Of a stretch of 64,000 nucleotides of DNA, positions 22,528-39,559 are shown piece after piece; position 1 is the stretch's first letter, and every line of letters starts with the position of its first letter. The notes under the pieces were generated by a model. The model made no database searches. It had not been told where the DNA came from and saw only the letters and a program-made list of their open reading frames with translations. Made by a program: the position numbers and the translations under genes. Origin of the DNA: Phycisphaerales bacterium (GTDB taxonomy: Bacteria; Planctomycetota; Phycisphaerae; Phycisphaerales; UBA1924); the NCBI GenBank assembly GCA_040221175.1, contig JAVJVK010000004.1, positions 542,268 to 606,267 on the forward strand, read 5' to 3'.

Positions 22528-22854
22528 GCCAAGCTCCGATAGTGCCGTTAATCCCAGCGGCTTCCACCGCCTGCACCACCTGTATCGGCAAGCCCCCCAC
22601 CCAACTCCAATTCGATCTCAACCCTTTAGCACCCGATTCGGGCACGATTGAACGCCGCCCGAGGCTCCAACGAATTCCTCCTCCGCGACCTCCGCGCTCG
22701 AAAAACTCGCACCCACCACCACCGAAGCGCGCAACCTGCCGGCGCTCCACGAGAAACGGCTTGACGCCGCAAGCCGTTGCCATAACTTCAGATCATGCTC
22801 GACGAGAATCTCAATCCGATCCGCACGCCAATCCACGAACGAAATAAACAGCGC
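22528..22854. other. Intergenic region without a recognised gene
   Basis: This is 327 nt between two minus-strand genes. It is relatively A+T-richer than the surroundings, especially 22780-22855. Short frames on both strands have low-complexity, Pro/Arg-rich translations and no ribosome-binding site, so they are not called. No exact DnaA box (TTATCCACA) was found on reading, although the region lies close to the base-skew switch. It should contain the promoter of the acidic protein gene and the 3' flank of the acyltransferase unit. Confidence 0.4.
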
Positions 22855-23580
22855 TCACGCCTCGACGCCCCAGCCGGTCCAGGCCTCGTACCGGGCCTGA
22901 AGGTCGGCTGCTACCTCCCCGGGACCCTGCTCACGCCCATACTCAATCGGGGGCATCACGCGAATCCGGGGCCGGCTGGTTCGCGCCAGGGCGCCCCACG
23001 CCGTCGGCGCCATCGCCGCGTCCTCGATCACGATCGGCAGCACGCGAGCCCCGCTCCGGCGGATCAACAAACCGACCCCGGCCTGGAACGGCCGCAAGGT
23101 CTGAGGCTTCCGCTCGATCCCACCCTCGGGGAACAACCCCAGCACCCCGCCGATCGAAAGGTGCCGCAGCGCCTCCCGCACCCCCGCCGGGTCGCTGTTG
23201 GCCCGATCCACGAAGATGATCCGGCCAAACCGCCACAGCCACTCCCCCGCCGGGTGCCGCATGTCGGCGGCCATCATCCACCTGGGCTCGAACGGCAGCA
23301 CCGACTGGACCAGCAGCGGATCGACCCCCGACGCGTGGTTGGCCACCACGATCAAGGGGCCCACGCCCTCCAGCCCCCCGCCGGGGATGAACTCGGGGAT
23401 ATTCTCCCGCCCCTCCAGCCGCGGCGGATGCCGCAGCCGCACGTACCCGCGGATCACGTGGTACGCCAGGTTCCCCAGCACGTCATCGCCGCGCGGCCCG
23501 CCCAGCAGCCGGCCGGCCGCCATGGCCACGCCAAGCCACAACACGAGCGCCAGGATGAGCCAGAAAAGCCAGGGGGGCAT
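22855..23580 (-). CDS. plsC: 1-acyl-sn-glycerol-3-phosphate acyltransferase family protein
   Basis: This is a PlsC-type acyltransferase: an N-terminal membrane helix (LFWLILALVLWLGVAMAAG) and the acyltransferase motifs in order, NHASGVD (the H(x)4D catalytic pair, about residue 83), FVDRANSD, LFPEGGIERK (glycerophosphate binding) and LPIVIEDAA. It makes phosphatidic acid from lysophosphatidic acid at the inner membrane, although relatives also acylate other lipids. Length (241 aa) is normal. It lies downstream of, and probably separate from, the feo genes, 45 nt beyond the small membrane ORF. Confidence 0.88.
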   Translation of the reverse strand: MPPWLFWLILALVLWLGVAMAAGRLLGGPRGDDVLGNLAYHVIRGYVRLRHPPRLEGRENIPEFIPGGGLEGVGPLIVVANHASGVDPLLVQSVLPFEPRWMMAADMRHPAGEWLWRFGRIIFVDRANSDPAGVREALRHLSIGGVLGLFPEGGIERKPQTLRPFQAGVGLLIRRSGARVLPIVIEDAAMAPTAWGALARTSRPRIRVMPPIEYGREQGPGEVAADLQARYEAWTGWGVEA

Positions 23581-23625
23581 GAGGGCAACAGGTTAGCACC
23601 CATTAGGTTCAGTTGCGAGCCAGAG

Positions 23626-23778: not shown

Positions 23779-25665
23779 TCAGCCTATCGCGCTCGCCACG
23801 CCGTACACGATCGCCGCGGCAACGTAGGCAACCCCCGTCATCCACCCCGCCTGGAGCGCGGCCCACTTCCACCCGCCGGCCTCCTTGGCCGTGACAACCA
23901 AGGTCGGCAGGCACTGGATCGCCAGCACGAAGAACACCAGCATCGCCCAACTGGTCGCCGGCGTAAACACTCGACTGCCATCATCGCGCTGCGCCGTGGC
24001 CAGCTGCTCGCGGATGCCCTCGTCCTCGGCGTCCTCGGTGCCGGCGATCTGAACCGCCATCGTGCTCACGAACACCTCGCGCGCAGCAAAGCTGGCCAGG
24101 ATGCCGACGGTCAACTGCCGATCGGCGCCGATCGGCGCGAACACCGGCTGCACGGCGTCGCCGATGCGCCCCAGGAAGCTCACCTCGGCGGCGCGCTGCG
24201 CATCGTCGGGGTCGGCCGGTTTGGGATAGGCCGAGAGCCACCACAGGATCACCGAGATCGCCAGGATTACCGTGCCGGCCTTTCGCACGAACAGCCAGCC
24301 GCGCGCGGCGGCGGTCTTCGTCGCGCTAACCAAGCTCGGCCACTGGTACCGCGGCAATTCGAGCGCCATGGCCGGACTCTTGCCCCTCAGGATGGTCCGC
24401 CTCGCGAGGATGGCGGTGAACAGGCCGGCCAGCGCGCCCAGCACGTAGCAGCCCGTAAACGCCACGGCCTGCAGCATCGTGCTCTCGGGGAACAAAATCT
24501 GCGTCAGCAGCACGTACACGGGGATGCGAGCCGAGCAGCTCATGAAGGGGATGGCCAGGATGGTCGCCACGCGCTGGCGGAAGTCGGGAATCGCGCGCGC
24601 AGACATGATCGCCGGGATCGCGCACGCGTGCCCGCTCAAGAGCGGCACGAAGGCGTGGCCCGGCAGGCCAAATGGTTTGAGCAACCGGTCGATGACAAAG
24701 GCCGCCCGCGCGAGGTAGCCGGTCTGTTCCAGCAGCGCGATCAGGAAGAACAGCAGCACGATCTGCGGCAGGAACACCAGCGTGCCGCCGACACCCGCGA
24801 TCACGCCGTCGGCCAGCAGGTCGCGGATCGCGCCGGCGGGCAACGTGCTGCTCACCACGCCCGCCAGCCAGCCGAAGCCAGCTTCGATCGCGTCCATTGG
24901 GATCGTCGCCAAACTGAAGATCGCCCAGAACAGGCCGGTCATGATGGCGGCGAAGGTGGCCACGCCCAGGATCGGATGGGTGAAAGCCAGGTCGAGCCGG
25001 TCGGTGACGGCGTCGTGTTTGCGCACATCGGCGGTGCAGGCCTTCGTGTAGACCACGTCGGCCCACGTGTCGATATCGCTGGGGCTGAGCGGGCCGGCGG
25101 CAACCCTTGCGCGCGCCAGTGCGGGCAGCACGTCGGCCACGCCCTTGCCGGTCTTGCCCGAGGCGATGACAACCGGGCAGCCGAGCGCCGCCTCGAACTT
25201 CTCGGCGTCGATCTTGATGCCCTGGCGCGCGGCGGCGTCGGTCATGGTGACGACGACGATGGTTGGTAAGCCGAGCGCGATGACCTCGCCGGCCAGGCGC
25301 AGGTTGCGCGGCACGTTGGTGGCGTCGACGACGATGGCGACGGCGTCGGGCTGGCCGTCTGGGAAGCCCTTGATGGACTGGTCGCCCGTCAGCACGCCCT
25401 TGGCGATGCGTGACTCGTTGGTGTTGAGTGTGAGGCCGTAGGCACCGGGCAGGTCGGCGAGCATGACGGGGCCGCCCGGTGTTTGCACCTGCGCCAGGTG
25501 GGCTTCTTGTGTTGTGCCGGGGAAGTTGGCGGTCTTCTGGCGGAGGCCGGCCAGGGCGTTGAAGAGTGTTGATTTGCCGACGTTGGGGTTGCCGACCAGT
25601 GCGGCGGTTTGCACCCTGGGGATGGTCACGCCGACGGGGTTGGTAGGGAGCGTGACCGGGGGCAT
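23779..25665 (-). CDS. feoB: Ferrous iron transport protein B (FeoB)
   Basis: FeoB imports Fe2+ across the inner membrane. The N-terminal G-domain has G1 GNPNVGKST (residues 26-34) and G3 DLPGAYGL. The G4 position reads TMTD where NxxD is usual, a possible weakening of guanine specificity. G5 is represented by ASGKTGKG. The membrane part (about residues 230-628) contains gate-like motifs LSGHACAIPAIMSAR and FMSCSARIPVYVLL. At 628 aa it is shorter than the E. coli form (773 aa). FeoA lies 18 nt upstream and a 45-residue peptide 15 nt downstream. The gene spans the point at which strand base skew reverses. Confidence 0.95.
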   Translation of the reverse strand: MPPVTLPTNPVGVTIPRVQTAALVGNPNVGKSTLFNALAGLRQKTANFPGTTQEAHLAQVQTPGGPVMLADLPGAYGLTLNTNESRIAKGVLTGDQSIKGFPDGQPDAVAIVVDATNVPRNLRLAGEVIALGLPTIVVVTMTDAAARQGIKIDAEKFEAALGCPVVIASGKTGKGVADVLPALARARVAAGPLSPSDIDTWADVVYTKACTADVRKHDAVTDRLDLAFTHPILGVATFAAIMTGLFWAIFSLATIPMDAIEAGFGWLAGVVSSTLPAGAIRDLLADGVIAGVGGTLVFLPQIVLLFFLIALLEQTGYLARAAFVIDRLLKPFGLPGHAFVPLLSGHACAIPAIMSARAIPDFRQRVATILAIPFMSCSARIPVYVLLTQILFPESTMLQAVAFTGCYVLGALAGLFTAILARRTILRGKSPAMALELPRYQWPSLVSATKTAAARGWLFVRKAGTVILAISVILWWLSAYPKPADPDDAQRAAEVSFLGRIGDAVQPVFAPIGADRQLTVGILASFAAREVFVSTMAVQIAGTEDAEDEGIREQLATAQRDDGSRVFTPATSWAMLVFFVLAIQCLPTLVVTAKEAGGWKWAALQAGWMTGVAYVAAAIVYGVASAIG

Positions 25666-25683: not shown

Positions 25684-26010
25684 TCAGTGCGGCAGCACGT
25701 AGAGGCTGTCGGCCAGGTCGCGGCTCAGGGCGATGCGGCAGCCGCCGGCGTGGCCGTCGACGTGGACGATGCAGGGCTGGCCGGCCTTGCAGACGCGGAG
25801 CTGGCAGCTCGGGCGGAGGCCCATGGCGGTGAGGTGGGCGGCCGAATCGTCGGCGAATTCGGCGGCGTCCAAGCGGCCGGTCTGGCCTCGCGTGAGTTGG
25901 GTGAGGCGGACGCGGGCGGGGGCCTTGGCGGTGGTCTGGGTGGCTGTGTTCGTATGGCTCACGGGTGAGTCTAGCGGTATTGAGACTGGTTCGCAAGGAG
26001 AGATCGCCAT
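25684..26010 (-). CDS. feoA: FeoA-like SH3-domain protein
   Basis: FeoA is a small cytoplasmic partner of FeoB. The C-terminal 75 residues fit: LTQLTRGQTGRL, then HLTAMGLRPSCQLRV, then VDGHAGGCRIALSRDLADSLYV. ATG at 26010 gives 108 aa. GTG at 25962 would give 92 aa, closer to the usual length, and neither start has a good ribosome-binding site. It is followed by feoB after 18 nt, so the two form one operon. The 99-nt divergent region before the LVIVD gene contains a TATGAT on the plus strand but no convincing Fur box. Confidence 0.85.
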   Translation of the reverse strand: MAISPCEPVSIPLDSPVSHTNTATQTTAKAPARVRLTQLTRGQTGRLDAAEFADDSAAHLTAMGLRPSCQLRVCKAGQPCIVHVDGHAGGCRIALSRDLADSLYVLPH

Positions 26011-26109: not shown

Positions 26110-27312
26110 ATGCGAACCGGGACGCGGGGATGGTGTGCGCTGCTGGCATTGGTCGCGGCGCTGGCGGGTGGACGGGCGACCGGGCAGGACTGCGAGCCGG
26201 TGCTGCTGGGCACGCACGACCTTGGGCAGAACTATGCGAAGCTGCTGATCGACGGGGACGTGCTGTACCTGGCGTCGGTCGACCTGCACGTGGTGGCCTT
26301 CGACATCTCCGACCCGCTGGAGCCGGTCGAGATCGGGCGCGTCGCCTCGCGCTTTGGGGCCAATGACCTGGTGCTACACGGCGACCTGCTGCTGGTGGCC
26401 AGCGCGGGCACCGGCGGCGGCGTGACGATCTACGACGTCTCGGACCCGGCGGCCATGCGGCAGGTCTCGGACGTCTCGATGGTCGAGGGCGCGCCCATCA
26501 GCCCGATCGGCGTGGACGTGCACGAGGACCGGATGTACGTGGCGGGCATGCTCGACGGGTTGCTGGTGTTCGACATCGCCGACCCGAGCGACCCGGCGTA
26601 TCTGGGCAGCTTCGAGTTCGTGTTCGAGGCCTACGACGTGCAGGTGGGCTCGTTCATGATCGGCCCGGACGAGCGCATTCTCGCGTTCATGGCGTATGAG
26701 TTCGGTGACTTTGGCGTGGTCGACATCACCGACCCGACGGCGGGCGTGATGGTGTCTCGCCAGGAGACGGGCATCCGCACGTTCCAGGTGTTGCTCGACG
26801 ATGATCGCGTGTTCGTGCACGGCACGGGGTATGGGCTGAGCACGTTTACGCTGGACGATCCGAGGCGCCCCACGCGGCGCTCGCGCGTGGAGCCCCCCAG
26901 GCAGGCGCACCAGATGGCGCTGTCGCAGGACATCATGGTGGTTTCGGCCGACAGCGATGGGTTCACGATCGTGGACGTGGAGGACGCGGGGTGCACGCGG
27001 GCGATCTACGACACCGGCCGCGTGCCGGGCGGGCGTCGCGCTGGCATCGCCTCGCGGCGGACGAACGCCGGCGGGCACTTCATGTACGTGGTGGCGCGCG
27101 ATGGCGCGGTCGAGGTGTGGGACATCGCCTCGTGCCGGCCGGGGCCGTGCGTGGCCGACTTCACCGGCGACTGCCAGACGACCGGCTCGGACTTCGTGGC
27201 CTTCGAGATCGCCTTCTCGCGCGGCGAGGCCCGGGCGGACCTGGACGGGGACGGTCGGCACACGGTGATGGACTATCTCGCGTTTATCAATGCGTACCTG
27301 GAAGGGTGCTGA
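26110..27312 (+). CDS. Secreted LVIVD-repeat protein with C-terminal calcium-loop module
   Basis: The start at 26110 follows GGAGAGAG and gives a signal peptide (WCALLALVAALAGGRA). The mature protein has LVIVD-type repeats, each of about 45 residues, with recurring VVAFDISDP, VTIYDVSDP, LLVFDIADPSDP and FGVVDITDP, likely a beta-propeller. The last 55 residues form a degenerate paired dockerin-like/EF-loop module: CVADFTGD, then DLDGDGRHTVMDYLAF, ending LEGC-stop. The Cys before the first loop and the terminal Gly-Cys are shared with four other proteins in this window. Ligand and location are unknown. Confidence 0.8.
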   Translation: MRTGTRGWCALLALVAALAGGRATGQDCEPVLLGTHDLGQNYAKLLIDGDVLYLASVDLHVVAFDISDPLEPVEIGRVASRFGANDLVLHGDLLLVASAGTGGGVTIYDVSDPAAMRQVSDVSMVEGAPISPIGVDVHEDRMYVAGMLDGLLVFDIADPSDPAYLGSFEFVFEAYDVQVGSFMIGPDERILAFMAYEFGDFGVVDITDPTAGVMVSRQETGIRTFQVLLDDDRVFVHGTGYGLSTFTLDDPRRPTRRSRVEPPRQAHQMALSQDIMVVSADSDGFTIVDVEDAGCTRAIYDTGRVPGGRRAGIASRRTNAGGHFMYVVARDGAVEVWDIASCRPGPCVADFTGDCQTTGSDFVAFEIAFSRGEARADLDGDGRHTVMDYLAFINAYLEGC

Positions 27313-27388
27313 GCGGCGGGCCGACCAGCGGGGCGAGACCGGGGCGGGCGGCTATTGGGAAGCGCCGGGCCCGCTGCGAGCGGCCGGC

Positions 27389-27556
27389 GGTGTGCCATGC
27401 GTTGCCGACGGCGTGCCATGAGCCACCGACGGCGTGCCGGGAGGCGTTGCGGGTGCGTCGGGAGAAACTCCGGACGCGGCGGGAGGAGCTCCGGGCGCGT
27501 CGGGAAGAATTCTCGGCGTGCCGGGAGGAGTTCTCGGCGCGGCGGGAACTCTTCTT
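27389..27556. repeat. 21-bp degenerate tandem repeat array, about 8 units
   Basis: Eight units of 21 bp begin at 27389, 27410, 27431, 27452, 27473, 27494, 27515 and 27536. Conserved parts are GGCGTGCCGGGAGG and the closing TTCTC/CTCCG. The core shows dyad symmetry in several units: GGAGCTCC in unit 5 and GAATTC in unit 6. As 21 is divisible by three, all plus frames remain open and read as heptads (for example LRARREE then FSACREE), but no start with a ribosome-binding site is present. There are no spacers, so it is not CRISPR. The rest of 27313-27790 (GC-rich, with G runs around 27740-27750) holds no gene I can support. Confidence 0.8.
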
Positions 27557-28400: not shown

Positions 28401-29756
28401 ATGAGCGATCTGTTTGGGGCTGAGCGGGCGAAGCGGCGGCGGCGGGTGGAGCCGTCGGCGGCGAGGATGCGGCCTCGGTCCATTGATGAAGTCGTCGGGC
28501 AGCAGCATATTTTGGGACCGGGGAAGCTGCTGCGGCGGATGCTGGAGGCCGATGCGCTGACGAGCCTGATTTTGCATGGGCCGCCGGGGACCGGGAAGAC
28601 GACGCTGGCTGGGCTGATCGCCGAGCACTCGGGGCGGCACTTCGAGGCGGCCAACGCGGCGTCGATCGGGGTGAAGCGGGTGCGGGAGGTGTCGGACATC
28701 GCGCGGGCGCGGCTGGAGGATGGCGGGCCGCGGACGGTGCTGTTTCTGGATGAGGTGCACCGGTTCAGCCGCAGCCAGCAGGACGTGCTGCTGGAGGACG
28801 TGGAGCGCGGGGTGCTGACGCTGATCGGGGCGACGACAGAGAACCCGCTGTTTGCGTGCAATGCGGCCTTGGTCAGCCGGAGCACGCTGTTCCGGCTGGA
28901 GCCGTTGACTGAGGACGAGATCGTCGAGGTGTTGCGGCGGGCGCTGAGCGATGACGAGCGTGGGTATGGGAAGGTCGACATCGAGGCGCACGAGGATGCG
29001 CTGCGGGTGTGGGCGGTGAAGTGTGATGGGGATGCGCGGCGGGCGTTGACGGCGCTGGAGGTTGCGGTTCTGAGCTCGGGGAAGGATGGCGAGCGCATCG
29101 TCATCGATCGGCAGGTGGCCGAAGATTCGATCCAGCAGAAGGCGGCGGTGTATGGGGACGACGAGCACTACGACTCGGCGTCGGCGATGATCAAGAGCAT
29201 CCGGGGGAGCGATCCGGACGCGGCGTGCTACTGGATTGCGCGGATGCTCGAGGGCGGGGAGGACCCGCGGTTTATTGCTCGAAGGTTGGCGATTCTGGCG
29301 AGTGAAGATGTCGGGAACGCGGACCCGCGGGCGGTGATGGTCGCGGCGGCGGCGTGGGAGCTCGTGGAGCGGATCGGTCTGCCCGAGGCGCGGATCACGC
29401 TGGGGCATTGCGCGTGCTATCTGGCGCTGGCGCCCAAGAGCAACGCGGCGTACAAGGCGATCGATGCGGCGATCGCGGATGTCAAGGAAGGGCGGACGGT
29501 GCCGGTGCCGGTGTATCTGCGGGATCCGAATTCGTCGCCGCTTTCGGTTGGGGATGCTACTGGCGTGCGCACCAAGGAGGTGGGCGGGGAGAAGTATGAG
29601 TACAGCCACAACGCGGCTGGGGGGTTGACGGGGCAGGATTATCTGGGGGTTGCGAAGCGGTATTACGAACCGGGTGAGACTGGGGAAGAGGCGGCGATGG
29701 CGGCGCGGCTGGCGGAGATTCGGGCGATGCGGCGGAGGCGGAAGGCGGAGGGTTGA
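28401..29756 (+). CDS. rarA: Replication-associated recombination protein A (RarA/MgsA), AAA+ ATPase
   Basis: RarA is a cytoplasmic AAA+ clamp-loader-like ATPase that acts at stalled replication forks. It is identified by RPRSIDEVVGQQHILGPGKLL, Walker A GPPGTGKTT (about 59-67), Walker B VLFLDEVHRFSRSQQD (about 113-128), sensor 1 GATTENP and the C-terminal tetramerisation region (YHAASAFHKSIRGSDPDAA-like YDSASAMIKSIRGSDPD). Length (451 aa) is normal. The stop TGA overlaps the next gene's ATG by one base, so a pseudopilin-like gene is translationally coupled to it. Confidence 0.96.
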   Translation: MSDLFGAERAKRRRRVEPSAARMRPRSIDEVVGQQHILGPGKLLRRMLEADALTSLILHGPPGTGKTTLAGLIAEHSGRHFEAANAASIGVKRVREVSDIARARLEDGGPRTVLFLDEVHRFSRSQQDVLLEDVERGVLTLIGATTENPLFACNAALVSRSTLFRLEPLTEDEIVEVLRRALSDDERGYGKVDIEAHEDALRVWAVKCDGDARRALTALEVAVLSSGKDGERIVIDRQVAEDSIQQKAAVYGDDEHYDSASAMIKSIRGSDPDAACYWIARMLEGGEDPRFIARRLAILASEDVGNADPRAVMVAAAAWELVERIGLPEARITLGHCACYLALAPKSNAAYKAIDAAIADVKEGRTVPVPVYLRDPNSSPLSVGDATGVRTKEVGGEKYEYSHNAAGGLTGQDYLGVAKRYYEPGETGEEAAMAARLAEIRAMRRRRKAEG

Positions 29757-36677: not shown

Positions 36678-38021
36678 TTACTCGCAGCCGGCGTCGAAGG
36701 CGTTCTGGAAGGCGAGGAAGTCGAAGATGGTGAGTTCGCCGTCGCCGTCGAAGTCGGCGATGGGGTCCATGTCGTCAAAGGCGTTCTGGAAGGCGAGGAA
36801 GTCGAAGATGGTGAGCGTGCCGTCGCCGTCGAGGTCGGGGCGGCAGGTGGCGTCCGCGGCCAGGCGTTGGGCCAGGGCGCGTTGGGTGTCGTCGCTGGGG
36901 CGGTAGTACTGGCCCATGGCCCAGACGTCGCCGCCCGGGGTGACGTCCATGCTTCGGAACCACTGGTCGATGCCGTCGGTGGGTGCGGCGTCTATGCGTT
37001 GCCAGCTGCTGCCGTCGTACTTGAGCATAAGCTGACGCGGGCGGCCGTCGGCGTCTGCGTCGGTGCCGCTGGCGTAGACCTCTGTTGCCGACCGCGCGGC
37101 GACGGCGCGAAGCTCGGCGCGGCGGCCCTCAATGAACGGCACGTCGGCGCGCGTCCAAGATGAGCCATCCCAATGGAGTATGAGCGGCTGCGTTCCGTCG
37201 TCGGCGCCCATGAAGAGCGAGCCGACGGCCCAGACGTCGTCGCTGGCGATGGCCTCGACGCCGCCGAGCTGGCCGAATTCGCGGATGCCCACGTCGACGA
37301 GTTCCCAGCGATCGCCGCCGGTCCAGCGCACGATGTAGGGGGTCGGGCCGAAGGGGTCGGTGCTGCCGGTCTGCTGGGCGGCGCCCACGCCCCATGCGTC
37401 GTCCTCGGCTACGCCGTCGATGTCGCGGATGCTGTTGAACCCGCGGCCACCGAGCGTGGCGAGCGGCTCGACGTCGTAGGTTTCCCAGCCGGATCCGGTC
37501 CACTTGAGTGCAAGTCCAACGTTTCCGACGGCCGGTGGTGGCTCGAGCGAGCGGCGCAGTCCGCCGGCCCAGATGTCGTCGCCCGCGCGGCCGATGGCGT
37601 CAAGGCCCGATCCGCCCGTGAACTCGGGGCTGGAGATCTGCGACCATGAGCCACCTTCATATCGCATCACGAAGGTCTGACTCACGGAGATGGGCGAGTA
37701 CGACCCCACCGCCAGCGCCTCGCCCGGGCCGATGGCCTCGACGTCTCGCATGAACGGCACGTCGTCCACCGTGGGCGGTTCGATGAATCTCCACCGCTGA
37801 CCATCAAAGCGATAGGTCACCATCACCCGCTCGCGAAAGCCGCCGGCGGTGAAGTACTGGCCGTCGCCCACCGCCCACACCTCATCGTCCGCCCATGCGT
37901 CGACGCCGAAGGCGATGCTGATGGGGTAGGGCGATTCGGTCTGGAAGTGCTGCCAATCGCTGGATTGGGCGATCGCTGCTGATGAGATGGCGAGTATGAG
38001 CGTGTGTGCGATGCGATGCAT
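36678..38021 (-). CDS. Secreted propeller-like protein with paired calcium-loop C-terminus
   Basis: The signal peptide is MHRIAHTLILAISSAAIAQ, preceded by ACGGAG. The body has repeats built on DDVWAVGS and LHWDGSSWT-type units (DDEVWAVGDG, DDIWAGGL, DDAWGVGA, DDVWAVGSLF, TEVYASG, GDVWAMGQYY), a pattern expected of a galactose-oxidase-like or WD-type beta-propeller with six to seven blades. The last 55 residues are two dockerin-like/EF-type loops (CRPDLDGDGTLTIFDFLAFQ; FDGDGELTIFDFLAFQ) ending AGCE. Function and binding partner are unknown. It is the last of three adjacent genes with the same module. Confidence 0.8.
   Translation of the reverse strand: MHRIAHTLILAISSAAIAQSSDWQHFQTESPYPISIAFGVDAWADDEVWAVGDGQYFTAGGFRERVMVTYRFDGQRWRFIEPPTVDDVPFMRDVEAIGPGEALAVGSYSPISVSQTFVMRYEGGSWSQISSPEFTGGSGLDAIGRAGDDIWAGGLRRSLEPPPAVGNVGLALKWTGSGWETYDVEPLATLGGRGFNSIRDIDGVAEDDAWGVGAAQQTGSTDPFGPTPYIVRWTGGDRWELVDVGIREFGQLGGVEAIASDDVWAVGSLFMGADDGTQPLILHWDGSSWTRADVPFIEGRRAELRAVAARSATEVYASGTDADADGRPRQLMLKYDGSSWQRIDAAPTDGIDQWFRSMDVTPGGDVWAMGQYYRPSDDTQRALAQRLAADATCRPDLDGDGTLTIFDFLAFQNAFDDMDPIADFDGDGELTIFDFLAFQNAFDAGCE
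36684..36836 (-). repeat. Calcium-loop DNA repeat, copies 1 and 2
   Basis: Two near-identical copies of about 65 nt encode the tandem loops at the end of the propeller protein. The core words GGCGTTCTGGAAGGCGAGGA and GTCGAAGATGGTGAG recur in both copies and in the other blocks at 38.0, 39.7 and 44.9 kb. Conservation at the DNA level, including synonymous sites, is higher than protein selection alone would require. Confidence 0.7.
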
Positions 38022-38032
38022 GTGGTTCTCCG

Positions 38033-39559
38033 TTAGGCGCAGCCGGCGTCGAAGGCGTTCTGGAAGGCGAGGAAGTCGAAGAGCGTGAGCTCACCGTCGC
38101 CGTCGAAGTCGGCGCTTGGGTCGCCGGCGTCGAAGGCGTTCTGGAAGGCCAGGAAGTCGAAGAGCGTGAGCTCGCCGTCGCCGTCGAAGTCGGCGGGGCA
38201 AGCGGTTTCGCCGATGGCGCCCATCTTCCAGGCGGTCATGGTGGTCTGGCCGGTGGTGCCGTTGAAGGTTCGGGTGGTAACGTAGACGTTCGCCTGATCG
38301 TCGAAGTGCATCTCGCCCGGCGTGACGGCGGTGCTCGTGGCGCGGGCGATTTCGGATCCGGTTGCGGCGTCGAGCCGGAACAGGATGGTCGCGCCGCCGT
38401 AGGGAGGGGAGCCCGCCGAGCCCAGAAGCAGGACTTCGCCGGCGGGCGAGACGCGGATGCTGCTGGGCACGTCGTAGCAGCCGTGGCAGGTCTCGCCGAA
38501 TTGGAAGGTCCATTCGAGGGCGCCCGAATCGGCATTGCGCTTGACGGCGTAGATGAGGTCGTTGAAGTTACTCTCGTTGCCGTCCAGGTCGGCGTCGCCG
38601 GCGATGTAGACGCCGCCGTTGTTGTCGATGGCGATTGTGCGTGCGTGGTCGTCGATGCCGAGTTGGTCGTAGGCGCGCCAGAGTTCGGCGCCGGTGTCGC
38701 CGTCGACCTTGACGGTCATGAAGGCGTCGCCGCCGTCCAGGCCCGTGCCGGTAACGTAGATGTCGCCCTGATCATCGACGACGAACACGTGGTTGTACTC
38801 TCCCGCGCGGGTGCCGTAGTTGTTCTCCCAGATGATCGAGCCGTCGGCGGGGTCGAGCTTGATGAGGTAGTAGTCGGGCTGGAGGTCGGCCATGACGGCG
38901 TTGGGCATCATGAGGACGCTGCCGTCGGCCATGGCGTGCATTTGTTCGGAGGAATCCTGCGAGTAGGGCCCCCAGGCGCCGCCGTCCCAGGTGGTTCCCC
39001 ACTGCCGGGTTCCCTGCTCGTCGAAGCGCAGGATGAGCACGTCCGAGCCGTCGCCGTTGGTGCCCCCGCCGATCATGGCGTCGCCCCCGGGTAGGGCGAC
39101 GATGTCGTAGCCGGCCTCGGAGGCGCCGGGGTTGAAGCGGTCGATGGTGGATTCGAGGATGTCGCCGGTCGACTGATCGAGTGAGAGCAGGAGCGTCTGC
39201 GCCCTGCTGCTCCAGTCCGGCGTGCTGCCGGTGACCAGCAGGCGGCCGGTGTCCGTGAGGGCAAGGGCGCGGGCCTGGTCATGCCAGTTGCCCGGACCGT
39301 TGTAGTCCAGACGCCAGCGGAGGTTGCCATCGGTGTCGAGTGAGGCCACCACGGCGTCGGTGTTTCCGGACGGACCGCTGATGCCGCAGAGGTAGAGATC
39401 GCCCGTCGCGGCATCGAGTTGTGCATCGAGCAGGCCGCCCGAGAGGTGGGTGCCGGTGTCCAAGCGGGTGATCCACAGGTGATCGATGGTCTGAGCGGTG
39501 GCCAGCGATGCCATTCCGGCGGTGCAGAGGATCGCGATCAGGGGGGCTTGGTGGTTCAT
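38033..39559 (-). CDS. Secreted PQQ/SBBP-like beta-propeller protein with paired calcium-loop C-terminus
   Basis: The start at 39559 gives a signal peptide (LIAILCTAGMASLATAQ). The body repeats units such as TDAVVASLDTDGNLRW, ILRFDEQGTRQWGTTW, YYLIKLDPADGSIIWENN and IYVTGTGLDGGDAFMTVKVD, the SBBP/PQQ-like style of extracellular beta-propeller. The C-terminus holds two loops (CPADFDGDGELTLFDFLAFQ; FDGDGELTLFDFLAFQ) and ends AGCA. It lies 11 nt upstream of the sister gene and is probably cotranscribed with it. The ligand is not known. Confidence 0.8.
   Translation of the reverse strand: MNHQAPLIAILCTAGMASLATAQTIDHLWITRLDTGTHLSGGLLDAQLDAATGDLYLCGISGPSGNTDAVVASLDTDGNLRWRLDYNGPGNWHDQARALALTDTGRLLVTGSTPDWSSRAQTLLLSLDQSTGDILESTIDRFNPGASEAGYDIVALPGGDAMIGGGTNGDGSDVLILRFDEQGTRQWGTTWDGGAWGPYSQDSSEQMHAMADGSVLMMPNAVMADLQPDYYLIKLDPADGSIIWENNYGTRAGEYNHVFVVDDQGDIYVTGTGLDGGDAFMTVKVDGDTGAELWRAYDQLGIDDHARTIAIDNNGGVYIAGDADLDGNESNFNDLIYAVKRNADSGALEWTFQFGETCHGCYDVPSSIRVSPAGEVLLLGSAGSPPYGGATILFRLDAATGSEIARATSTAVTPGEMHFDDQANVYVTTRTFNGTTGQTTMTAWKMGAIGETACPADFDGDGELTLFDFLAFQNAFDAGDPSADFDGDGELTLFDFLAFQNAFDAGCA
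38038..38190 (-). repeat. Calcium-loop DNA repeat, copies 3 and 4
   Basis: Two copies of the same module-coding repeat, 84 nt apart in start, differ from each other at only a few positions (GAAGAGCGTGAGCTCGCCG core). They are located at the 3' end of the second propeller gene. Confidence 0.7.

Follow-up and report, generated by a model that had tools for sequence, protein, structure and literature searches.

A conserved origin-type switch in strand skew at an acyltransferase/rarA junction in a Phycisphaerales genus

Genes and elements at the junction

The window is the whole 64,000-nucleotide stretch of Phycisphaerales DNA analysed here, which covers C4:542268–606267 (contig C4) of a source genome, G000, of 3.44 Mb in 20 contigs. 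FeoB relatives from outside the genus put this genome in Planctomycetota, in or close to Phycisphaerales. Gene borders are approximate, as they come from a simple caller based on codon usage. At the centre of this analysis is a conserved junction formed by an acyltransferase gene on its left side (PF01553; 22855–23580, minus strand) and by rarA, encoding an MgsA-type AAA+ ATPase, on its right (28401–29756, plus strand). Between them sit feoB (23779–25665, minus strand), feoA (25684–25962, minus strand) and, in the same insertion as feoAB, a gene for an LVIVD-repeat protein whose C-terminus bears an acidic, dockerin-like repeat (26200–27312, plus strand). The acyltransferase orthologue adjoins the skew switch described below in G000 and in the congeners G003, G004 and G005; in G003 and G005, feoB, part of the junction insertion, is missing from the junction and the rarA orthologue adjoins the acyltransferase gene. 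The gene names RNase R, KdtA, FeoB and RarA/MgsA given in a preliminary description of this DNA stand, and its carboxylase beta is a carboxyltransferase subunit with a methylmalonyl-CoA decarboxylase alpha-like match.

Two non-coding elements accompany these genes. Upstream of the acyltransferase start lies a conserved element (23580–23615, no strand) that contains CAGGTTAGCACCCATTAG at 23589–23606. This block of about 30 bp has the 18-mer CAGGTTAGCACCCATTAG as its core, with one close copy (0–1 mismatch) per genome in six of the seven genus members. The idea that the 18-mer is an origin motif recurring at further skew jumps was rejected, as a single close copy per genome makes a promoter more likely; the element is probably the promoter of the acyltransferase gene. 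Imperfect 21-bp tandem repeats (27384–27548, no strand) lie within the feoAB-containing insertion, away from the change point, and are absent in alignments of feoAB-less junctions; a similar 21-bp array is found upstream of rarA in G004.

Elsewhere in the window, a duplicated acidic C-terminal motif, dockerin- or EF-hand-like (DFDGDGELTLFDFLAFQNAFDAG; 36684–36850 and 38042–38195), ends several secreted proteins. The DNA of this motif is found again, at 82–91% identity, at a great many sites across the congeners' genomes.

A sharp switch independent of gene strand

Strand skew is a standard tool for placing bacterial origins and for checking assemblies. In the window, a maximum-likelihood change point falls at 24,519, inside feoB (gain, 520 log units; 3-log-unit support interval, 24,184–24,948; no strand). 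The cumulative minima in the window are at 24,486 for G-C and at about 24,990 for T-A, and TA skew matches GC skew in polarity across the switch. The left arm (1–24519, no strand) is C-rich and A-rich and extends beyond the window to about C4:475 kb; the right arm (24520–64000, no strand) is G-rich and T-rich, falls almost to zero over about 50 kb and fades in raw skew by C4:615 kb. A skew reversal at 24400–25000 within feoB, proposed earlier from the letters alone, is therefore real, and the base counts offered for it are exact (14 G and 30 C at 23821–23880; 27 G and 13 C at 25501–25560).

The sign of the skew follows position and is indifferent to gene orientation, as the preliminary description had also held. 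On both strands, third-position skew is negative without exception among called genes on the left and almost uniformly positive among those on the right. At four-fold sites within 30 kb left of the switch, skew is -0.65 in plus-strand genes and -0.40 in minus-strand genes, and within 30 kb to the right it is +0.38 and +0.50, respectively; intergenic skew moves from -0.16 to +0.18. Strand-corrected third positions, four-fold sites and intergenic sites together rule out transcription or gene orientation as the cause. The largest 20-kb jump observed was 0.70, against a maximum of 0.40 in 200 gene-order permutations.

The skew is confined to about 140 kb

Strong raw skew is limited to a stretch of about 140 kb, from about C4:475 to 615 kb, of which some 90 kb lie left of the switch and some 50 kb right of it. 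Of the 24 5-kb blocks no farther than 60 kb from the switch, 13 exceed an absolute skew of 0.12; in the sequence sampled elsewhere in G000, blocks of the same size have a mean absolute skew of 0.039 and only 3 of 180 exceed that value. Positional skew was calculated by subtracting a constant sense-strand bias of about -0.14. On the left, strand-corrected third-position skew in G000 runs from -0.31 to -0.37 over 40 kb and from -0.28 to -0.32 to about 70 kb, reaching zero by about 90–100 kb; on the right it declines from +0.38 to +0.30 over 30 kb and is near zero by 50–60 kb. A replichore-wide skew running down to a terminus was not found: beyond about -90 and +50 kb the sampled genome is near zero, and the far arms have almost no consistent polarity.

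Skew was sampled over about a third of G000, a third of G004 and a tenth of G005. The dominant strand-corrected jump of each sampled genome measured 0.75, 0.82 and 0.55, and the switch in the window is the deepest cumulative-skew switch within the sampled third of G000. The switch thus has origin polarity without splitting the chromosome in two, and its V stays local, spanning about 140 kb. The earlier origin reading holds for the polarity, which is sharp, strand-independent, present in both GC and TA skew and shared by five species, and fails for the chromosome-wide division that it implied.

The switch is conserved among congeners

The same switch site is present in five species, G000 and its congeners G004, G005, G003 and G001. 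In the complete genome of G004 it falls at C1:417,762 (417,361–417,822), a position that corresponds to the same region of feoB. G005 has no feoAB, and its switch, at C2:329,000 (328,941–329,340), coincides exactly with the boundary between the acyltransferase gene and rarA; in G003, with no feoAB at the junction, the support interval covers this same boundary. On a short contig of G001 the skew flips across feoB. The arm curves drawn for G000, G004 and G005 in 10-kb steps and one orientation almost coincide. Compared across these sequences, the switch is conserved and is not a REARRANGEMENT. The reversal, which might have proved shorter than 20 kb and lost in relatives, instead spans about 140 kb and is kept among congeners.

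These comparisons also separate the site from its genes. feoB was rejected as the cause: the switch persists without feoAB in G003 and G005, and no clear V accompanies feoB in G006, where the acyltransferase gene is separated from the feoB–rarA block. The emphasis first placed on feoB was thus misplaced; the gene is incidental, and feoAB-less relatives switch at the acyltransferase/rarA junction. In G003, orthologues of window positions 5.7–21.7 kb lie on another contig, where their skew is about +0.05 and not negative, and the junction keeps its V despite their having moved. Because the moved orthologues lose the skew while the junction retains it, the signal belongs to a place and not to particular genes, and the acyltransferase side of the junction is the better candidate. 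An integrated plasmid is an unlikely source, given core genes in conserved order and gradual fading of the skew.

Two sequences from the Phycisphaeraceae also carry skew switches beside feoB, syntenic neither with the window locus nor with each other. L130 (ZRK32; 1–22013) has skew of 0.2–0.3 with two sign changes within 22 kb, and L135 (1–21953) has skew of 0.2–0.3 that flips just downstream of feoB.

Searches for origin features

Neither canonical nor one-mismatch DnaA boxes were found within 10 kb of the switch, and dnaA is 237 kb away at C4:329 kb (C4:329079), in keeping with the absence of both from the inflection in the preliminary description. This dnaA encodes the canonical GGRDHTTV signature. 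A divergent second dnaA at C1:170.6 kb (C1:170599) carries the signature GRPNHSSI, a degenerate box-binding sequence, and, of 121 genomes drawn from across the order, nearly all have at least two DnaA matches. Neither dnaA copy has a skew step comparable to the main switch. A small upward step is present in G000 at C1:173.7 kb, about 2 kb past the second dnaA, and in G005 a stretch of strong negative skew (about -0.20) lies at C1:1412–1418 kb, about 20 kb left of the second dnaA.

Canonical DnaA boxes number four in the whole of G000, and the genome's only close inverted pair of perfect boxes, about 100 bp apart, is at C7:294762–294873. ParB, with an adjacent parS-like palindrome, is also encoded on C7 and not on the switch contig. 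In G004, a DnaA box near a skew step at 2,630 kb lies upstream of an mraZ-like gene and has weak companions only. Searches near the switch found no parS, iterons, tRNAs or Rfam structured RNAs and no strongly AT-rich conserved intergenic region; the highest AT content of any 100 bp in the vicinity is 49%, at 22,751, in a stretch missing from G005.

A candidate site of bidirectional initiation

We consider it likely, from the conserved position and polarity of the skew, that the switch marks a conserved bidirectional replication initiation site at the acyltransferase/rarA junction, into which feoAB would have been inserted later in some species. Such a site may be the chromosome's main oriC, or one of several origins and the strongest among them. 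Forks would leave the junction in both directions, as suggested by the excess of G and T on the outward-leading strand on both sides, and each leading strand would gather this excess as cytosine deamination in exposed single strands predicts. Initiation at the junction would probably proceed without canonical DnaA boxes. The fading of the mark within 50–90 kb is unusual because undisturbed forks travelling from one origin to a distant terminus should keep their polarity. Fork direction may be mixed further out, through other initiation sites or recombination-started forks; alternatively, the asymmetric mutation process may act solely near the start, or distant skew may have been scrambled. With no DnaA-box cluster, no adjacent dnaA and no replichore-wide skew, we have not filed the site as a canonical oriC.

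The last of these explanations for the fading leads to a somewhat doubtful account, in which the junction is a single, ordinary oriC, frequent inversions and gene relocation have scrambled the skew of the rest of the chromosome to zero, and the origin-proximal region alone is still collinear. Gene order around the switch is indeed conserved, the genus has undergone many rearrangements, the genes that moved in G003 lost their skew, and a weak positive residual persists to the right, at 100–400 kb in G000 and 150–400 kb in G004. However, scrambling should leave distant genes as a mixture of strong plus and minus values, and their positional skew is near zero. Gene order in G000 and G005 largely agrees across and past both arms (C4:443–654 kb), yet the skew is gone beyond the arm ends, and the lack of nearby DnaA boxes also counts against an ordinary oriC.

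A second account, which we regard as rather unlikely, holds that several initiation sites exist, that the one in the window is the strongest, and that skew reports the net direction of forks, as it does in human N-domains or in multi-origin cyanobacteria. Consistent with this, strand-corrected skew in G004 oscillates, with 14 upward against 7 downward steps of at least 0.2. Six further upward steps on C1 of that genome, at about 14, 1066, 1275, 2016, 2606 and 2633 kb, measure 0.32–0.44 strand-corrected, below the main step, and the downward ones are smaller. Possession of two DnaA genes by almost every sampled member of the order points in the same direction, and multi-origin, DnaA-independent bacteria with irregular skew are known (PMC7198777). 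In G000, however, secondary upward steps show no excess over downward ones (4 versus 8), the G000 block orthologous to the right side of the 2016-kb step in G004 lacks positive skew, and the step evidence comes from about a third of each genome. The fullest form of this idea is itself an unlikely one: a non-cyanobacterial chromosome would be copied from several sites, with the strongest in the window, its strand bias following net fork direction as in eukaryotes and not splitting the circle into two replichores, and the order-wide second DnaA might take part where canonical DnaA boxes are lacking.

It is improbable that the V records local over-replication, in which about 140 kb would be copied over and over from a secondary start by escape or run-off synthesis of the Bartonella kind, with the true oriC located elsewhere. 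Local arms fading both ways resemble the Bartonella run-off profile (PMC2697382), and dnaA and ParB are located elsewhere, but no phage, GTA or plasmid genes are among the genes annotated near the switch, and extra copies alone would leave base-composition equilibrium unchanged unless inherited. A recent inversion or assembly join, raised at the outset as a rearrangement nearby, is extremely improbable: a sharp sign change can arise at an inversion end, but independently assembled relatives share the site with identical polarity, collinearity is kept across the switch, and the arms fade instead of ending sharply.

An initiation site at the junction would be a precise and testable initiation locus in a planctomycete order that is rich in uncultured members and in which two DnaA genes are nearly universal. 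Strong skew within 50–90 kb of one conserved site that is distant from dnaA and free of DnaA boxes breaks the skew-based rule for placing origins, and suggests variation along a bacterial chromosome in fork polarity or in strand-specific mutation.

Comparison with known systems

A dnaA gene beside oriC is common and not universal among bacteria. The switch resembles a bacterial oriC in how sharply GC skew turns from negative to positive, its excess of T over A, its independence of gene strand and its conserved position. It differs in having neither dnaA beside it nor a DnaA-box cluster, and its skew is limited to about 140 kb, whereas that of oriC spans both replichores. A survey of about 7,000 complete genomes found a normal skew pattern in most and no skew in a small subset (PMC7111523). 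Our searches of open-licence papers turned up no account of a comparable local V in planctomycetes.

Synechocystis 6803 and Nostoc 7120 have multi-origin, DnaA-independent chromosomes with irregular skew (PMC7198777). The genome studied here is similar in its irregular, near-flat overall skew and in still encoding dnaA; unlike these cyanobacteria, it has one very strong local V that is conserved between species. Bartonella run-off replication likewise produces a bidirectional local domain with one centre away from oriC (PMC2697382), in a paper that reports no skew; the switch in the window has no phage or GTA genes found near it. Human skew N-domains and fork polarity gradients (PMC3320577) extend over megabases, whereas this bacterial feature covers kilobases to tens of kilobases and G000 has one convincing jump; the two share a sharp upward jump and a gradual loss of skew with distance.
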